Source of the DNA: Bdellovibrionales bacterium RIFOXYC1_FULL_37_79
Lineage (GTDB): Bacteria > Bdellovibrionota > Bacteriovoracia > Bacteriovoracales > Bacteriovoracaceae
Direction: 5' to 3'
DNA: 64,000 nucleotides
NCBI GenBank assembly: GCA_001770015.1
Contig: MEQB01000011.1
Location: forward strand, 124,001 to 188,000
The notes under the pieces are model-generated. The model saw only the letters and a program-made list of their open reading frames with translations. It was not told the origin of the DNA and ran no database searches. A program made the translations under genes and the position numbers. Shown here one piece after another: positions 35,493-52,374 of the stretch (position 1 is the stretch's first letter; the number at the start of each line of letters is the position of its first letter).

Positions 35493-36677
35493 CTATTGAC
35501 GTATATACTTGCTGATTTTGTCTTTTTCCAACTTCACATCCTCATAAGCGCTGCAATCTCCCCATAGATTGTTTTTCCACCATTTTCCATCTTTGACCCA
35601 CCATACACGATGATCTCGGAAAGAGTCGGCAATATGGTCAAACTGTTCCTCGGTCATCCTCACATATTTTAACCATCTATTTAAATCATCTTGTGGCCTG
35701 ATATGATCATACTTTCTTACCATCTCAAGTCCTTCCTCCCTTGTTAAATAACCAGATCGAATATCCTTGCTGGCATGGTCGGTTGCTCTCCCGTATCCAA
35801 ATTTAATGTATTTTAAATAATCGTGAATACCGTTCTCATGCATGTCATCTAAATTTGACATCGTCCTGTACGTTCTGGCAAAGGGTTGTGAGGCAAATTC
35901 AAAACCATAATTTTTTTTCATCTCTTGGGCGTGAATGTTGGGATCCCATTTGAAAAAATTACCAACGTAAATTCCTTTAGTTTGGGTTTCTTCAAATTCC
36001 TTGTCTGATGGCATGGTCAACCAGACCAGATCCTTGTGGGTCAGTCCCTTGATTCTTTCCAGCATGTCTTTGGTGGTGAAACCTCTCATATCATGTTCAA
36101 AGACCGTTCTTTTATTATATTCCACAAAGTCGTTGGCAGAAAACATTCCCGAAATGGTCCAGGTAATTTCCCCCCAAACGACCAAAGGGATGTTAAATTT
36201 AACTGCTATGTGCATTGGATATGTTTTTATTCCAGCGTGAGCATGCCAGTTCATATCGCCCATAATTTCAAAACAGCCCCGATTAAGTTTTTTTAATATT
36301 TCTATTGATGGCCCGAAAACGATATGATCAACATTTAGTTTTTCTCTCATGCGATCCAAATTTCTTTGGCCTTCAGGGAGATAATTATTTCCATGATAGG
36401 TGACCAGTAGTGGTTTTAGGCCATATTCAAGAACCTTATGAACCTGGAAATAACTGTCTTTTCCTCCGCTAACCGGGATAACACAGTCATAATTACCCGT
36501 TGATTTTGATTTTGCCCATCGGGTAAGCTCAATAAATTTTTTCCGTCTTTGCTCCCAAAACTCCTCCGTAAGCATATCGAACTCTTCCTGAAGACGACAG
36601 GCGCTGCAAATCCCTTCATCATCAAGTATTAAATTTACAGAGATCATCGGATAAACACATTTTTTACAATACTTCAT
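35493..36677 (-). CDS. N-acetyl sugar amidotransferase (PseA/WbpG-like)
   Basis: ATP-dependent enzyme that turns an N-acetyl group of an activated sugar into an acetamidino group, taking ammonia from partner glutaminase subunits. 394 residues from ATG 36677: zinc-like cysteines Cys4, Cys7, Cys24, Cys27, and the PP-loop SGGKDS at 70-75. A longer frame to 36746 would overlap the hisF-like gene by 62 bp and is not needed. The HisF-like and HisH-like partners lie immediately upstream, as in WbpG/HisH2/HisF2 systems. Confidence 0.87.
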   Translation of the reverse strand: MKYCKKCVYPMISVNLILDDEGICSACRLQEEFDMLTEEFWEQRRKKFIELTRWAKSKSTGNYDCVIPVSGGKDSYFQVHKVLEYGLKPLLVTYHGNNYLPEGQRNLDRMREKLNVDHIVFGPSIEILKKLNRGCFEIMGDMNWHAHAGIKTYPMHIAVKFNIPLVVWGEITWTISGMFSANDFVEYNKRTVFEHDMRGFTTKDMLERIKGLTHKDLVWLTMPSDKEFEETQTKGIYVGNFFKWDPNIHAQEMKKNYGFEFASQPFARTYRTMSNLDDMHENGIHDYLKYIKFGYGRATDHASKDIRSGYLTREEGLEMVRKYDHIRPQDDLNRWLKYVRMTEEQFDHIADSFRDHRVWWVKDGKWWKNNLWGDCSAYEDVKLEKDKISKYIRQ

Positions 36678-36684
36678 AAGATAC

Positions 36685-37506
36685 TTATAGATTACTTTGT
36701 TGTTCAGATAATGGTATCGGTTTTCTAACAGGAAGTCCCCTGTCATATAGATATTTTTTTAGATTATAGACACTGTTTTCTGAATGGTGGAAAATGTTGG
36801 CAGCTGCTACAGCACTGGCATTGGTTTTAAGTAGTACCTCCTCGAAATCTTCCCATTTTCCTGCACCTCCGAGGGCAATAACTGGAATGCGTACATTCTT
36901 GGCGATTTTATTAATCAATGAGATATGAAATCCTTGACCACCGCCATCCCGATCTACTGCGTTAAGCAAGATTTCACCCACACCAATTTTTTCTACTTCC
37001 CGGGCAAAATCAACCGGATCCCAATGGGTTTCGTTTTTTCCTTTCTTGTAAACAACCTCTTTTCCATGTTCATTTACTTTGACATCGATTGAGGCCACTA
37101 TACATTGTGAACCAAATTCACTGACTAGTTCTTTAACTGTTTCAGGAGATTCAAGAAGCAAACTGTTTACTGTGATTTTGTCTGCTCCCAGCTTGATTCG
37201 CATTCTGGCATCTTCAACATTTCGGATACCTCCTCCAAAAGTTAGCGGCGACAGGCATTTTTTTGATATTTGTTGAATGATCTCACTTATGGTGGAAAAT
37301 TGGGAATGATTCAAATCATCACGGTTCAAATCATAGCTGGATTCGTTTGAGATATCCAAGTAAATCAACTCATCAGAGAACCAATTGCTCAACCGCTCGA
37401 CAATGGCGGTAGGGGTTCCCAAGGCTTGATGTCTTTTGAATAGTCGGCTTTGCACGATGATACCGTTTTTTAAAAGGACAACCGGTATTATTCTTTTTTT
37501 TAAAAT
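36685..37506 (-). CDS. hisF: HisF-like amidotransferase synthase subunit, apparent ATT start
   Basis: Cyclase-like (beta-alpha)8 subunit that would pass ammonia from the HisH-like glutaminase to the sugar amidotransferase. The usual-start annotation (GTG 37455) would delete the first strand, yet the frame upstream encodes LKKRIIPVVLLKNG in register with HisF residues 2-15. The only codon in place for residue 1 is ATT at 37506-37504, six bases after GAGGTGA (37516-37510), and a TGA lies just before. With that start the protein has 273 residues. The canonical catalytic Asp11 is Leu11, as in polysaccharide-type HisF proteins; Asp141 (ASIDVK) is kept. Confidence 0.82.
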   Translation of the reverse strand: MLKKRIIPVVLLKNGIIVQSRLFKRHQALGTPTAIVERLSNWFSDELIYLDISNESSYDLNRDDLNHSQFSTISEIIQQISKKCLSPLTFGGGIRNVEDARMRIKLGADKITVNSLLLESPETVKELVSEFGSQCIVASIDVKVNEHGKEVVYKKGKNETHWDPVDFAREVEKIGVGEILLNAVDRDGGGQGFHISLINKIAKNVRIPVIALGGAGKWEDFEEVLLKTNASAVAAANIFHHSENSVYNLKKYLYDRGLPVRKPIPLSEQQSNL

Positions 37507-37528
37507 AGCTCACCTCGTTTTTTTAAAA

Positions 37529-38140
37529 TTATAAATCAAGAAAGTTTTTTAAAAGTTTTAACCCATTTAGCTGGCTTTTTTCCGGATGAAACTGGACGCC
37601 ATGAATATTGTCTTTTGAAATTGCAGCATTAAATTCTTGCCCATAGAAGGATTTGACTGCTTTAACGTTTTCGCTACAGACCAGATGGTAGCTATGAACG
37701 AAGTAAAAAGTCGCATCGTATTCAATATTCTTAAACAGTGGCGAATTGTCCATGCCGGTCAGCTCATTCCAACCCATATGGGGGAGAATCCCGTTTGGTA
37801 AATCTGCCTGGAGCAGATTTACCTTTCCATTAATGAGATCAAGTCCTTTAAAAACACCCATCTCATGCCCTTCAGTGGCGAGTACTTGCATTCCAACACA
37901 TATACCAAGAAAATTTTTTTTGTTAATGAGCAATTCTTCTTGCAAGGCTTCAATGATATTCAGCTCCTTTAATTTGGCCATGGCGTGACCGAAAGATCCT
38001 ACGCCGGGTAGAATCAAATGGGAGCATTTTTTTAATTCGCTAGGATTTTGAATATTTGAAATCTTGGAACTGATTCTTTCCAAGGCATTCCAGACGGAAA
38101 GAAAATTTCCTGACCCATAATTGATCACACCGATTATCAA
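37529..38140 (-). CDS. hisH: HisH-like class I glutaminase subunit
   Basis: 203-residue class I glutamine amidotransferase. Nucleophile Cys81 in GICVGMQ, His185 and Glu187 in GVQFHPEKS, and GVGSFGHAM near 46-54. Releases ammonia for the HisF-like and PseA/WbpG-like partners. No other histidine-biosynthesis gene is present, so a sugar-modifying role is favoured over histidine synthesis. One base separates it from the preceding PseG-like stop. Confidence 0.9.
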   Translation of the reverse strand: MIIGVINYGSGNFLSVWNALERISSKISNIQNPSELKKCSHLILPGVGSFGHAMAKLKELNIIEALQEELLINKKNFLGICVGMQVLATEGHEMGVFKGLDLINGKVNLLQADLPNGILPHMGWNELTGMDNSPLFKNIEYDATFYFVHSYHLVCSENVKAVKSFYGQEFNAAISKDNIHGVQFHPEKSQLNGLKLLKNFLDL

Positions 38141-38141
38141 G

Positions 38142-39149
38142 TTATTTCCTCAGTTTTTTTGTTACTATCCTAGTGATGATAGCGCAGGCATTGTGATCCA
38201 TCAATGATTTACCTTGGAGGTGCATATTAAAAAGTTCATTCTTGTTGGCAAAAATATCCTCGATTTTTTCATTTAGCTGGAGCAAGTTTTTTTCGCTGAA
38301 TATGTCTCCATAAAAACAGGCATTGTTTTCAACAATTTCTCTAATTAAAAAATAGTGCTCATTGGTTTCTAAAAAATTGATTGAAGGCAATCCTGCGTGA
38401 GCTGCCTCATAACTGGTGATTCCACCCATGAGAATTAGAAAAACACAATTTTGTAAAATGTGCCACATACTGCGGTTGGAGTGTACCAAAATAATCTCGT
38501 GGGAAGTGTTGCTTTTAATTTCATTAATTAGTTCGTCATAGGAGTAGCTATAGCCTTCGCCCAACGCCACCCAAAACACGGCGGGGACGCTACATTTTTT
38601 TAAAGCCTGTAAGCATTTTAATGTTTTGTTGGCGGCATCTGTTCCCCCCATACTTATGGCAATAGGAAAAAATGGAAGGTTTAGGTTGGATTGAAAAATA
38701 TCTGTGTTGATTTTTTTGCAATTGGGTTGAATAATTGAGTATTCCATCCCGGCATAAATCTCTTTGGGCAGTTTGGAATCAACCAGATACTTGGTCCTGT
38801 TAAAAAGAATGTCTGTAAAGTTTAGCATGTTAAACATTGGAGAAAGTGAGACCGTAAGCCTGGCCTGTTGTTTAATCTTTAAAAAAATATCACTTTGGAT
38901 ATTCATCATATCAAAAAAAATCACGTCATAGTTATCAGAAATATTCAAATCATTTTCCTGCTCAATCATTTTCCAGGAAAAATGATCAGATAATAAAAGT
39001 TTTTCGAGAGAGGTATCCCCAATTGAAATAAAATCAACTTGTTTAAATTGCGTAGATTCTTTTTTTATATATGCGGCCAATGTTTTGCTTCGGACGAGAT
39101 GTCCCAGCCCGGTGTTAATTGATGCCTTACATATAAAAAGTGCTTTCAT
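38142..39149 (-). CDS. PseG-like nucleotide-sugar hydrolase/glycosyltransferase-fold protein
   Basis: 335 residues. N-terminal FICKASINTGLGHLVRSKTLA carries the G-x-G-H-x-x-R pattern of PseG, which removes UDP from the 2,4-diacetamido sugar before NeuB-type condensation. Later IAISMGGTDAANKTLKCL, and LILMGGITSYEAAHAGLPSINF. Its coupled neighbour (ATGA) is a NeuB-family synthase, which supports a nonulosonate role. A glycosyltransferase role is the alternative. Confidence 0.75.
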   Translation of the reverse strand: MKALFICKASINTGLGHLVRSKTLAAYIKKESTQFKQVDFISIGDTSLEKLLLSDHFSWKMIEQENDLNISDNYDVIFFDMMNIQSDIFLKIKQQARLTVSLSPMFNMLNFTDILFNRTKYLVDSKLPKEIYAGMEYSIIQPNCKKINTDIFQSNLNLPFFPIAISMGGTDAANKTLKCLQALKKCSVPAVFWVALGEGYSYSYDELINEIKSNTSHEIILVHSNRSMWHILQNCVFLILMGGITSYEAAHAGLPSINFLETNEHYFLIREIVENNACFYGDIFSEKNLLQLNEKIEDIFANKNELFNMHLQGKSLMDHNACAIITRIVTKKLRK

Positions 39150-40147
39150 CCTTGTTTCACCTTGTTTAAAGAAAAATTTTCAAATTGCTTAATATCAACC
39201 AAGGCCACAGAACCAATCAATAGGTCGTAGTCGTTGGCACCCATCGTGTTTTCGGGACGTACGATCAGAATATCATTATCCTTGATTATTTCTCCTGCTT
39301 TTATGTTTCTCGAGGCATATAATGAGCGACGGGCCCTTTTTTGGGTGTAGAGTTCCTCTGGACTCACCTTCTCTTTCTTAAGCTTTAAGGCTTCATGGGC
39401 TTCATGCAAATCGTTAATATATTGTTTAAGATGAACCTCTTCCATGGCGTATTTATGATCCAATCCTTCTTGTGATCTATCAGCGGTGAAATGCTTTTCA
39501 AACCAGGTAGCACCAAGGGTTAAGGCAATACATGCAGCAATACTGTGTTCAGTGTGATCGGAAAAGCCTACCTCTAATCCAAATGTTTTTTTTAATACTT
39601 CAATAAAACGAAGATTGGTTTGTCTTAGTTGGGCGGGATAGACGGATATACAATGCATAAGCACTACATCATTGTTTTTATGTTTGAAAATCTCATTGAG
39701 AGAGCGATCTATTTCTTGGAGGGTGGACATCCCTGTGGACAGAATAATTCTTTTTCCAGTGTCGGCGACTTGTCTTAATAGTTTTAAATGATTCAAATCC
39801 CCGGAAGCAATTTTGATGTAAGGGGCTTTTAATTTTATCATTAACTCCAAACCCTTGGAATCAAAAATTGAAGCAGTAAAAGGGATATTGGTTTTTACGC
39901 AATACTTGTGTAAATTTTCATAGTCAGCATCGGTCATAATGCCCTTGTCTCTAAGCATGCGCACTTTATTAATGTCATAATGCCCATACTCATAATTGCC
40001 AGGCAAATATAATTCATTGGTGTAGATAATTTGAAATTTTATTGAATCGGCTCCACAGCGGCTGGCCATATCAACCAATTCCAGGGCCTTATCTAGGCGG
40101 CCATTATTGTTTGTGCCAGCTTCAGCAATGATATGAATGTTATTCAT
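39146..40147 (-). CDS. neuB: NeuB-family nonulosonate synthase
   Basis: Condenses a 6-deoxy- or N-acetylhexosamine with phosphoenolpyruvate to give a sialic-acid-like sugar (Neu5Ac, pseudaminic or legionaminic acid). 333 residues: TIM-barrel with IIAEAGTNNNGRLDKALELV, DSIKFQ, IKIASGDLNHLKLL, ILSTGMSTLQEID, VGFSDHTEHSIAA and GATWFEKHFT; C-terminal SAF domain from about 275 (RRSLYASRNIKAGEII). Start overlaps the pyruvyltransferase stop. Which nonulosonate is made is not clear, since no PseB/PseC or LegB/LegC genes appear in the window. Confidence 0.92.
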   Translation of the reverse strand: MNNIHIIAEAGTNNNGRLDKALELVDMASRCGADSIKFQIIYTNELYLPGNYEYGHYDINKVRMLRDKGIMTDADYENLHKYCVKTNIPFTASIFDSKGLELMIKLKAPYIKIASGDLNHLKLLRQVADTGKRIILSTGMSTLQEIDRSLNEIFKHKNNDVVLMHCISVYPAQLRQTNLRFIEVLKKTFGLEVGFSDHTEHSIAACIALTLGATWFEKHFTADRSQEGLDHKYAMEEVHLKQYINDLHEAHEALKLKKEKVSPEELYTQKRARRSLYASRNIKAGEIIKDNDILIVRPENTMGANDYDLLIGSVALVDIKQFENFSLNKVKQG

Positions 40148-41211
40148 GTTGATTCCAATACTAATTTTGCAAACCTTTCACTGGCCTTAAACATATTTTC
40201 TCTGAGATTGGGCCATGAATTTTTTTTCAGGGAATTGCATAAATTATTCAAGTCCTTCAGATTATTTAGCCGGTTTTCAACCTCATTCAATACATTTTGC
40301 TTGACCATATTAATATTCCAATCAGAAAGTTTTAATGTTTCAAGCATGCTAATGGCCCGCTGGTCGTAGCTAATCTTGATGGTGGGTATGCCTAAAGATA
40401 GACAGGGAACAAAAGAATGCAATCGGTAGGTTACCGCCAAGCGGGTATTTCTAAGATAGGTCAGGTATGTATATACGTCTTCAGTATATAAATAATCCAG
40501 ATTAAAAGAATCGGCAAATGGGATATCGCGATGGTCATGACAAAGTAGTCTTATGTTGTGATACCCCTTGTTTTTTAACAGGCGGATAATTCCGAGAATA
40601 TCTTCTCGGACTTGATATTGAAATGAAGTCGGGACACTCATTAATGACGGTGTTCGGATTGAAATTAATGCATCAGTTTTGTCGGAATCCAGCAGGGGGA
40701 CAACGTGTTGGGGCATTTCATTAATAAAAAGGGTGGGACAACCGCCGATAACGGTATGTATTCCCAGAGATTTGATATGGTCATGGGTTGCAATATCACG
40801 GGATAATGAAATATTGGCGCGAGTATTTAAAAGAGCGATTTTCGCATCAGTCATAACATCTGTGCGATCAACCAATTGAAGATTTTTATTATAAATTTTT
40901 CCTCGTGATACACTGAAAATCATTAACGGTCTGGATAATGCTGTTAATGCAACCGGATCAATTTCCAGTTCACTGTTTTCATATAAATTTCCACCTCCGA
41001 TAATAGCACCGTGGCCAAATTGATTGATTTCGTAAACTGTTTGTGAACTTAACCCTGCTTTTTTTTGACTTTCATATTTGGAGGTTGCCGGTATTGAGAT
41101 AACATTGAAATTGTTTTTAAAAGCCATTCTTATAAAATGATTAAGGCCCAGATAAATTACATCATTGCCGATGTTAAACCCCTTGGGCCTGATAGAAAAA
41201 ATATTAATCAT
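40144..41211 (-). CDS. Polysaccharide pyruvyltransferase family protein
   Basis: 355 residues of the CsaB/WcaK-like family (PF04230), which attach pyruvyl ketals to sugars of surface polymers. GHGAIIGGGNLYEN near 88, SLSRDIATHDHIKSLGI, IGGCPTLF, and YTEDVYTYLTYLRNTRLAVTYRLHSFVPCLSLGIPTI near the C-terminus are typical. ATGA overlaps at both ends show tight coupling with the cytidylyltransferase and NeuB genes. Confidence 0.83.
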   Translation of the reverse strand: MINIFSIRPKGFNIGNDVIYLGLNHFIRMAFKNNFNVISIPATSKYESQKKAGLSSQTVYEINQFGHGAIIGGGNLYENSELEIDPVALTALSRPLMIFSVSRGKIYNKNLQLVDRTDVMTDAKIALLNTRANISLSRDIATHDHIKSLGIHTVIGGCPTLFINEMPQHVVPLLDSDKTDALISIRTPSLMSVPTSFQYQVREDILGIIRLLKNKGYHNIRLLCHDHRDIPFADSFNLDYLYTEDVYTYLTYLRNTRLAVTYRLHSFVPCLSLGIPTIKISYDQRAISMLETLKLSDWNINMVKQNVLNEVENRLNNLKDLNNLCNSLKKNSWPNLRENMFKASERFAKLVLEST

Positions 41212-41936
41212 AAAGAGTCCTTTCTGAGAGTTTTATATAGTAATATGATATCATCTAAACCTTTATTTAGAATAGAATTATCAAAGTTTAGCATTTTTTC
41301 AAAAAAATCAAAATCCTGTTTGGTATCAACGGTGAGATGAACATTGCTGGCATCGATTTTTTCTCCCATTGATATATTTTGAAAATTAAATTGATCCTTA
41401 TTCTTATAAAAAAATGAAGTAATGTGTTCGGTATGGTAACTGTCTTTGGTGTGATTCATATGATCCAGAAATACCTTGGCGTTGAAAATCTCTAAGCTAA
41501 TTCCGTACGGAAAAGTTCTGGGCAACAGATTGGTTATGAAATCAAGCTGGTTTTCAAGAAATATCTTATATCCTTTAAGTAATAAATCGGTTTGCAAAAA
41601 AGGACTATCGCCATTGATGCGGGCAAATGAATTTAATTGGTAATATTGAATGCAATCACAAACCCTTTGGGCAACATTATTCAATTCGCCTCTGAAAATT
41701 TCAATGTGGTATTTTTTGGCAAGCTCTTCCAGAGGATCATCCAGCTTTCTATCAGAGGTTGCAATGATAGGGCGAAAAGATTTTTGACTTGCCAACGCTT
41801 TTAAAGGGAATTCAATCAGTTTGGTATGGTTGATTTCAAGTAATGCTTTTCCTGGAAGTCTTTGGGAATCAAGCCTCACCAGGATGATGGCTGGCAAAAT
41901 CTCATTTATTTCATCGAAGGACTCGTTATGCGACAT
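41208..41936 (-). CDS. CMP-sugar (nonulosonate) cytidylyltransferase, SpsF/NeuA-like
   Basis: About 242 residues. The signature AIILVRLDSQRLPGKAL matches the CTP-binding loop R-x2-S-x-R-L-P-x-K of the SpsF/PseF/NeuA superfamily. It should activate the NeuB product as CMP-sugar. ATG 41936 is chosen because GAGGT lies six bases upstream; ATG 41948, which overlaps the wzt stop (TAATG), is possible. SpsF-type members may have other substrates, but the NeuB neighbour favours a nonulosonate. Confidence 0.78.
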   Translation of the reverse strand: MSHNESFDEINEILPAIILVRLDSQRLPGKALLEINHTKLIEFPLKALASQKSFRPIIATSDRKLDDPLEELAKKYHIEIFRGELNNVAQRVCDCIQYYQLNSFARINGDSPFLQTDLLLKGYKIFLENQLDFITNLLPRTFPYGISLEIFNAKVFLDHMNHTKDSYHTEHITSFFYKNKDQFNFQNISMGEKIDASNVHLTVDTKQDFDFFEKMLNFDNSILNKGLDDIILLYKTLRKDSL

Positions 41937-41947
41937 TCGTGACCTCA

Positions 41948-43234
41948 TTATGCATGGTGATTTGGGGAATGAATTTTACTTTCGATGATGCGGGAAGGGA
42001 CAGAAAAACAACCGCTTCGCATGGGAATGCCCGGGGTATGAAGATCACTTTCCTCTGAGATGACCAGTGGTAGGGTTACTTCGTCCACCACATCAATACT
42101 GGCGGGTGAATCATGTTTATCTGCAAGATGAAAATATAAAGGATATTCTCCGGAGCGAATTACATGATGGGCAGCAATTTCCAGCGTAACATCGCCTTCG
42201 GTGTCGGGCAATACAGGGTTGTCCAATAATATATGTTCAAAATTGGTGACGGTTTCCCTGGAGATGCCTGATTTAAGTGCAATATGAATTTTTACACCAT
42301 CCATTATTTTAAATACTTTATAAGACATTTTAAAAAAAATTGATTCGCCAATTTTAAAGGATGGGCAGCTTTCACCGAGAGCATTGGTAATCTCAATTTT
42401 TGTAAATCGAATAGCGCCTTCGCCTCTACGCAATTTTTCGTTGTGAATATGGGTTTTTTCATCAATTTTTGTATTCTTGGAAATCTGGTTATAGTGATTT
42501 ATAGTGGTATTGGTTTTGTCATCGATGATCAGTTTACCTTGATCGATTAAAATGCATCGCGGGCATAATTGCCTGATGGCCATCATGTTATGACTAACAA
42601 ACAAAACCGTTCTTCCCTCTTTACCCACATCCTCCATTTTACCTAGACATTTTTTTTGAAAGTGAGCATCGCCAACAGCCAGTACCTCATCCACGATCAG
42701 TATTTCGGGTTCCAAGTGAGCGGCTACGGCAAAGGCCAGGCGGACATACATCCCGGAGGAATAACGTTTGACGGGAGTGTCAAGAAATTGTTCGATTTCC
42801 GCAAACGATACAATCTCATCAAATTTTTTTTTGATCTCAAGACGTCTCATTCCCAATACCGCACCATTAAGGAAAATATTTTCGCGTCCAGTTAGTTCCG
42901 GATGGAAACCAGTACCAATTTCTAAAAGACTGGCCACCCGTCCGTTTAATGTAATCTTTCCCATGGTCGGTTCAGTTATCCGACTTATCAATTTTAGCAA
43001 GGTTGATTTTCCTGCACCGTTGCGCCCGATAATACCCAGGCGCTCACCTTGGCCTATATTGAATGAAAGATTATTGACAGCCCAAAATTCCTCGCTGGTA
43101 TGAAGCTTTTTTTTATTTGAAAAATTAAACGTGTTGGTGATTACATCCCTGAGGGTTGTATAACGTTCCCGGTTTTGATGTTTGATTACATAACGTTTGG
43201 ATAAATTTTCAACTTTAATTATGGTGTTGCTCAT
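41948..43234 (-). CDS. wzt: O-antigen ABC transporter ATPase with carbohydrate-binding C-domain
   Basis: 428 residues. N-terminal ATPase: Walker A GRNGAGKST at 70-78, signature YSSGMYVRLAFA, Walker B ILIVDEVLAVGD. The extra C-terminal domain (about 265-428) is the Wzt carbohydrate-binding domain that recognises the finished chain's terminus, a point that links it to a modified chain end. Pairs with the Wzm permease whose stop overlaps its start. Exports a whole polysaccharide across the inner membrane. Confidence 0.93.
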   Translation of the reverse strand: MSNTIIKVENLSKRYVIKHQNRERYTTLRDVITNTFNFSNKKKLHTSEEFWAVNNLSFNIGQGERLGIIGRNGAGKSTLLKLISRITEPTMGKITLNGRVASLLEIGTGFHPELTGRENIFLNGAVLGMRRLEIKKKFDEIVSFAEIEQFLDTPVKRYSSGMYVRLAFAVAAHLEPEILIVDEVLAVGDAHFQKKCLGKMEDVGKEGRTVLFVSHNMMAIRQLCPRCILIDQGKLIIDDKTNTTINHYNQISKNTKIDEKTHIHNEKLRRGEGAIRFTKIEITNALGESCPSFKIGESIFFKMSYKVFKIMDGVKIHIALKSGISRETVTNFEHILLDNPVLPDTEGDVTLEIAAHHVIRSGEYPLYFHLADKHDSPASIDVVDEVTLPLVISEESDLHTPGIPMRSGCFSVPSRIIESKIHSPNHHA

Positions 43235-51348: not shown

Positions 51349-52374
51349 ATGGATAGGTTTTTAGATTTGTCAGAAGAAAATAGAATTGCAATTTTTAGCA
51401 AATAAGAGGTTGATATAGGTCTTTCAGAAGATTTAATCGAGAAAGATTTTTGGGTTTGTTGGATACTAAAAAAACTCTTTGAATTAGATCATATTCAAGA
51501 CAACTTCACTTTTAAAGGTGGAACTTCATTATCCAAAGTCTATAAAGTCATTAATAGATTTTCTGAAGATATTGATATCTCGGTTGAACGAGCCTCTTTG
51601 GGATTTAAGGATAATAAAGAACCTGCGAACGTTGGGCCTAGGCAAGCAAAAAGATTAATCGAAGAGTTGGGAATTGCTTGCAAGAAATTTGTCCAAGGTG
51701 ATCTCTATGGCCGACTAAAAAATGTTATCGAATCTAAGCTTGGCCTAAAAGGCTGGAAGCTAGAAATTGATGAGGAAGATAATGACGGCCAGACAATTCT
51801 TTTCATGTATCCCAAATTAACGGCCAAATCTTCTGAATACATAAAACCAGTTGTGAAGATTGAGCTAGGTGCTAGATCAGATCATTGGTCAGTGAGTATG
51901 CACAAGATTTCACCTTATATTACCGAAATTTTACCATCACCACTTAATCAAATGGATGCTGAAATATGAGTTTTAAATATAGAGAGGACCTTTTTGGAAA
52001 AGGCCACAATCCTGCATAAATATTCGCATTATCCTAACGATAAAAATGTTCCAGAAAGACAGTCTAGACATTTTTTTGATTTCTACTGTCTTTTGAATTC
52101 AGTTGGGAAAACCAGGGCACTAGAAAATGAAGAGCTTCTTGAAAAAGTTGCGGCACATAAAAATATCTATTTTAAAGCTGCTTGGGCTCAATATTTAACT
52201 GCAAAAAAAGGAAGTTTAAGACTTGTTCCAGAAGAAAAAGTTATGAAGGCTATGGAAGCAGATTATAAAGCGATGAGAGATATGTTTGCGGGTGATGTTC
52301 CTTCATGGGATACCATAATTAAGTTGATAAGCGCTTTTGAAAAAGACTTTAATTATTCAGAGAAGAAGAAATAA
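51349..52374 (+). pseudogene. AbiEii-type nucleotidyltransferase toxin, two in-frame stops
   Basis: Reading one frame from ATG 51349 (seven bases after the antitoxin stop) gives 341 codons of near full-length AbiEii, interrupted by TAA at 51403-51405 and TGA at 51967-51969. Motifs survive: EKDFWVCWILK, FKGGTSLSKVYK, and RFSEDIDISVE with the D-x-D pair; after the second stop VLNIERTFLEKATILHKYSHY and a normal C-terminus continue. No frame change is needed, so decay looks recent, or these are sequencing errors. Confidence 0.82.

Follow-up and report, generated by a model that had tools for sequence, protein, structure and literature searches.

Translation starts at AUU are known from infC and pcnB, and the AUU of infC is an autoregulatory device of IF3. 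The ATT described here, in a hisF2-like gene, is probably a start of this rare, already known kind and resembles those of infC and pcnB in following a Shine-Dalgarno (SD) sequence. It differs from infC in that IF3 autoregulation belongs to infC, whereas any regulation of hisF2 is hypothetical. In Staphylococcus aureus, cvfC1 starts at AUU, while ccpN, infC and a lineage-specific citZ start at AUA; an extended SD has been described for infC, cvfC1 and ccpN, and reporters of cvfC1, ccpN and citZ gave ~10% of the AUG level in poor medium (PMC13009471). The AUU start of Borrelia burgdorferi pncA (BBE22) was missed, and databases list a truncated protein (PMC13398362). RcsD-Hpt of Yersinia pestis has an AUU start as well (PMC10191623).

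The gene lies in the window, i.e. the whole stretch of 64,000 nucleotides that was analysed. With cvfC1 and ccpN it shares an AUN start behind a strong SD at suitable spacing, and with the AUA of citZ a lineage-restricted non-canonical start in a metabolic gene (PMC13009471). As in pncA, a metabolic enzyme is concerned and the missed N-terminal extension carries conserved structure (PMC13398362). The S. aureus starts were demonstrated by ribosome profiling and reporters, and the use of AUU in pncA was proved by genetics and a crystal structure, whereas the start in the window is a proposed one. Moreover, cvfC1 and ccpN have conserved starts, in contrast to the ATT of the window, which is private to one genome.

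A full-length hisF-like gene (36685-37506) has ATT (37506-37504, minus strand) as its codon 1, followed by 272 open codons up to the stop at 36687-36685 (Table 1). The minus strand 5' of and through the start reads TTTATAATTTTAAAAAAACGAGGTGAGCT-ATT-TTA-AAA-AAA-AGA-ATA-ATA-CCG; counted from the end of the hisH stop (TAA, 37531-37529), TTTTAAAAAAACGAGGTGAGCT precedes the same run of codons from ATT to CCG. The placement of ATT at residue 1 in the original prediction agrees with the sequence, and the column holds the start codon in 36 homologues. The in-frame TGA that it located just before ATT is found at 37512-37510, with the codon GCT between. Equally correct was its statement that no ATG, GTG or TTG lies between this TGA and the conserved strand, the first of them in the hisF2 frame being GTG 37455. 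The predicted GAGGTGA is present as well; its distance of six bases holds for the end of the GAGG core (6 nt) and not for that of the full GAGGTGA (3 nt).

SD energies were computed with a consensus anti-SD, which is assumed, as no 16S was found in the assembly; on this basis the SD of hisF2 belongs to the strongest 5.6% of 337 sampled genes of its own assembly. The exact pattern GAGGTGA-NNN-ATT occurs in 17 copies in the 4.36-Mb assembly, and only that of hisF2 is followed by a long open frame, of 273 codons against 99 for the runner-up. Predicted RNA pairing covers part of the SD and of the start, which is counted against initiation at AUU. A direct repeat (ATTTTAAAAAAA) at 37529 and 37506 (minus strand), 23 nt apart, brackets the SD. 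It suggests that the spacer may have originated by partial duplication, though chance is likely given the A/T runs.

Table 1. Coordinates of the hisF2-like gene, its start region and neighbours in the window, and of further genes with candidate ATT or ATA starts.
Feature	Position	Strand	Basis or remark
hisF2/WbuZ-like CDS, 273 codons from ATT, plus stop	36685..37506	-	reading frame, profile matches
ATT, proposed start codon of the hisF2-like gene	37504..37506	-	aligned with ATG/GTG starts of 36 homologues
GAGGTGA, perfect consensus SD match	37510..37516	-	duplex energy -11.0 kcal/mol
In-frame TGA, one codon (GCT) 5' of ATT	37510..37512	-	sequence
Conserved codons 2-17 (barrel strand 1), 5' of the first conventional start	37455..37503	-	homologue alignment
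GTG, choice of an ordinary gene finder; without SD (-3.1 kcal/mol)	37453..37455	-	ORF list and SD energy
hisH-hisF2 spacer, 22 nt; closest homologues without spacer (genes overlap)	37507..37528	-	locus comparison
hisH-like glutaminase gene, TTG start; stop 22 nt before ATT	37529..38140	-	profile match
WbuX-type N-acetyl sugar amidotransferase, profile match from ATG 36677	35493..36677	-	335 bits, cut-off 203
PseG-like, NeuB/PseI-like, CsaB-like pyruvyl transferase and cytidylyltransferase-like genes (nonulosonic-acid cluster context)	38142..41948	-	profile matches
Second uvrA (another at C25), G000 C64	L074:15896-18727	+	ATT after AGGTGA; UvrA profile position 4 at residue 6
Methyltransferase, G000 C11	L062:2245-3018	-	ATA after GGGAGG, likely start
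860-codon protein, signal-peptide-like N-terminus, G000 C1	L170:12870-15449	-	ATA after AAAGGAG
Class IV aminotransferase, relative G044	L158:15172-16026	+	ATA exactly at profile position 1

The encoded protein (P0001) matches over its whole length the WbuZ (239.7 bits, cut-off 299.7), AglZ_HisF2 (204.3 bits, cut-off 310) and HisF (218.4 bits, cut-off 294.6) profiles, all three scores falling below the curated NCBIfam cut-offs. Solved HisF structures align with it from HisF residue 2. In HisF of the histidine pathway, strand 1 ends with the catalytic Asp11; here residue 11 is Leu (M1-LKKRIIPVV-L11, aligned with CLD of HisF) and the catalytic residue is absent. The protein resembles the HisF2, WbuZ and AglZ proteins as a full-length match to the (beta/alpha)8 family with a residue other than Asp at position 11. 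The likeness extends to the operon partners, which for these proteins are HisH2 and an amidotransferase of the WbuX/PseA type: next to hisF2 lie genes for a hisH-type glutaminase and for a WbuX-type amidotransferase. It differs from them in its scores below the NCBIfam cut-offs and in its start codon. The gene order neuB-pseG-hisH-hisF2-amidotransferase is also found in the Bacteroidetes MAG L015, and the L003 stretch shows the same order as seen from the PseG-like gene onward. It is natural to infer that the locus would serve acetamidino modification of a nonulosonic acid; the link to acetamidino sugars made earlier fits the neighbouring genes (hisH, the WbuX-type amidotransferase and the nonulosonic-acid genes). 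As a separate observation, the first ATG of the amidotransferase (36746) overlaps hisF2, and ATG 36677, where the WbuX profile begins, is probably the true start (36677-36746, minus strand).

The region of codons 2-17 was compared with L003, a homologue from the same taxonomic family that is 62% identical: 14 of the 16 residues are the same and 7 changes are synonymous (dN 0.13, dS 1.6). Pfam PF00977 matches the full frame from residue 4 (profile position 1), but only from profile position 22 if the protein is started at GTG 37455, a start that would cost barrel strand 1. Codons 2-17 are conserved as protein, and translation therefore starts upstream of this GTG. The ancestral, and probably also the present, start lies in that region, where ATT alone fits. 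With gene finders restricted to ATG, GTG and TTG, the annotated enzyme would be truncated and would probably not fold.

The 36 homologues whose codon 1 was examined comprise 11 from the same class, 22 named ones and 3 from the phylum. Of these, 31 have ATG and five GTG (L007, L025, L029, L030 and L031), and none has ATT; the alignment of L010 is one codon off, its ATG lying just upstream of the alignment column. The 22 named homologues came from a genome-contig search with a two-sequence alignment, while such a search with the single hisF2-like protein gave no matches. Because the homologues have only ATG or GTG at this position, the ATT is derived in this genome. An ATG in orthologues together with a sequencing error had been named in advance as telling against the ATT start, and ATG (or GTG) is indeed what the orthologues show. 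Conservation of such a start supports it and does not define it.

The change of codon 1 is accompanied by changes upstream. In the closest relatives, L015 and L003, the ATG of hisF2 overlaps the hisH stop (ATGYTAA) and the SD energies are -0.9 and -3.5 kcal/mol, respectively. The window locus has a 22-nt gap, with ~26 nt more sequence than L015, and its SD (-11.0 kcal/mol) is the strongest of 37 sequences, i.e. of the window gene and its homologues. Gain of an SD at a gene that lost its ATG is what compensation, and neither error nor decay, would predict. The pattern of SD and ATT fits a compensated AUU start of the kind seen in S. aureus cvfC1, and the locus offers a clean comparative example in which ATG became ATT together with gain of a perfect SD and loss of a gene overlap.

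Most probably, the hisF2-like gene is intact and translated from a non-canonical AUU start, the overlap having been lost and a spacer with an SD gained; we hold this with fair, not full, confidence. The constraint at residues 2-17, the SD, the lack of an alternative and the infC gene (see below) speak for the ATT start originally predicted, while the private and derived state of ATT tells against its being a conserved device. No relative retains ATT, and the assembly (74 contigs, no 16S found, which is common for a metagenome bin) may carry errors. A base-call or consensus error at an ordinary gene with a true ATG is accordingly conceivable: ATT and ATG differ by one base, all closest homologues have ATG, and genome searches found no conspecific or second copy of the locus. 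Against such an error, the perfect SD and the spacer, which are unusual in themselves, coincide with the odd codon, and several other genes of the assembly likewise show ATT or ATA at an SD-spaced position and no conventional start; we regard it as unlikely.

A real and recent start-loss mutation, with ATT working poorly or not at all as a start and the gene heading for decay, would fit the fact that the ATT is private to this genome, and after a recent loss the rest of the frame would still look intact. The 273-codon frame is intact, as are the adjacent genes, and the SD is far stronger than that of any homologue, a gain not to be expected of a gene in decay; we regard this reading, too, as unlikely. 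Very improbable is the use of another start. GTG 37455 is the first conventional start, yet it has no SD (-3.1 kcal/mol) and omits the conserved barrel strand 1. GTG 37513 would come into frame with one A fewer in the A8 run at 37501-37494 (by slippage or because the run is truly A7), and it overlaps the SD; a frameshift in this run was rejected, since GTG 37513 has no SD of its own and adds residues that occur in no homologue.

Initiation at AUU, its efficiency and any regulation by IF3 are what we infer from the features established here: the sequence, the homology, the N-terminal constraint, the derived state of codon 1 and the gain of the SD. The gene is probably still translated from ATT, at a reduced level. 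Ancestrally, the ATG of hisF2 would have overlapped the hisH end and been preceded by a slight SD at most. This lineage would have replaced the overlap by a short spacer that carries a perfect SD, and codon 1 would have become ATT. Strong SD pairing, along with hisH ribosomes terminating 22 nt upstream, may keep the 30S subunit on AUU, where the initiator tRNA would pair with two of the three bases, Met being the first residue of the protein. Expression would be expected to fall well short of the AUG level and to be IF3-sensitive. This would leave less of the HisH/HisF2 pair, which channels ammonia, for making acetamidino sugars.

Unconventional starts were also sought in ~1.18 Mb of the assembly. 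Its infC, too, appears to use ATT as start codon (GGAGG-CAATT-ATT-AAA-GAA), a TTG just upstream being without a good SD. In three further genes of the ~1.18 Mb, no conventional start keeps the conserved sequence or signal peptide, and ATT or ATA stands at SD spacing (Table 1). The second uvrA has no ATG, GTG or TTG before its conserved core, and ATT is its likely start; its relatives L098 (74%) and L099 (65%) have conventional start candidates. The methyltransferase (L062:3018-) lacks a conventional start for 54 codons, motif I included. In the L170:15449- protein, which gave no Pfam or NCBIfam match, the first conventional start is a GTG within the signal sequence that has no SD. In the relative G044 (2 contigs, 100% completeness), the first conventional start of the class IV aminotransferase is ~35 codons downstream of ATA.

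Among strong-SD codons 5' of the first conventional start, AUN was not enriched (23 of 209, 11%, vs 9.9% background, P=0.32). Any claim of recurrence rests on individual genes because this global test was negative, and the list of ATT and ATA candidates is suggestive only as regards a genome-wide habit. It seems improbable that AUU or AUA starts with strong SDs are in this lineage a recurrent, compensated way of keeping genes low and IF3-sensitive; the small IF3-responsive set would comprise infC, hisF2, the second uvrA, the methyltransferase and the secreted protein, with the class IV aminotransferase in G044. The candidates in this assembly and in one relative suggest that ATT and ATA starts may be under-counted.

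An AbiEii-like ORF (51406, plus strand) was considered as an ATA start and rejected, the in-frame TAA after MDRFLDLSEENRIAIFSK making a broken gene more likely. This toxin gene (51352-51966, plus strand; KGGTSLSKVY...FSEDIDI) has the TAA after ~18 codons and a remainder of 187 codons, and looks broken. A methyltransferase-like ORF of G000 C11 (L058:3189, minus strand) stays open for 127 codons before any ATG, GTG or TTG, and a conserved motif (IIDLGAGYGRVG) precedes the first of these.
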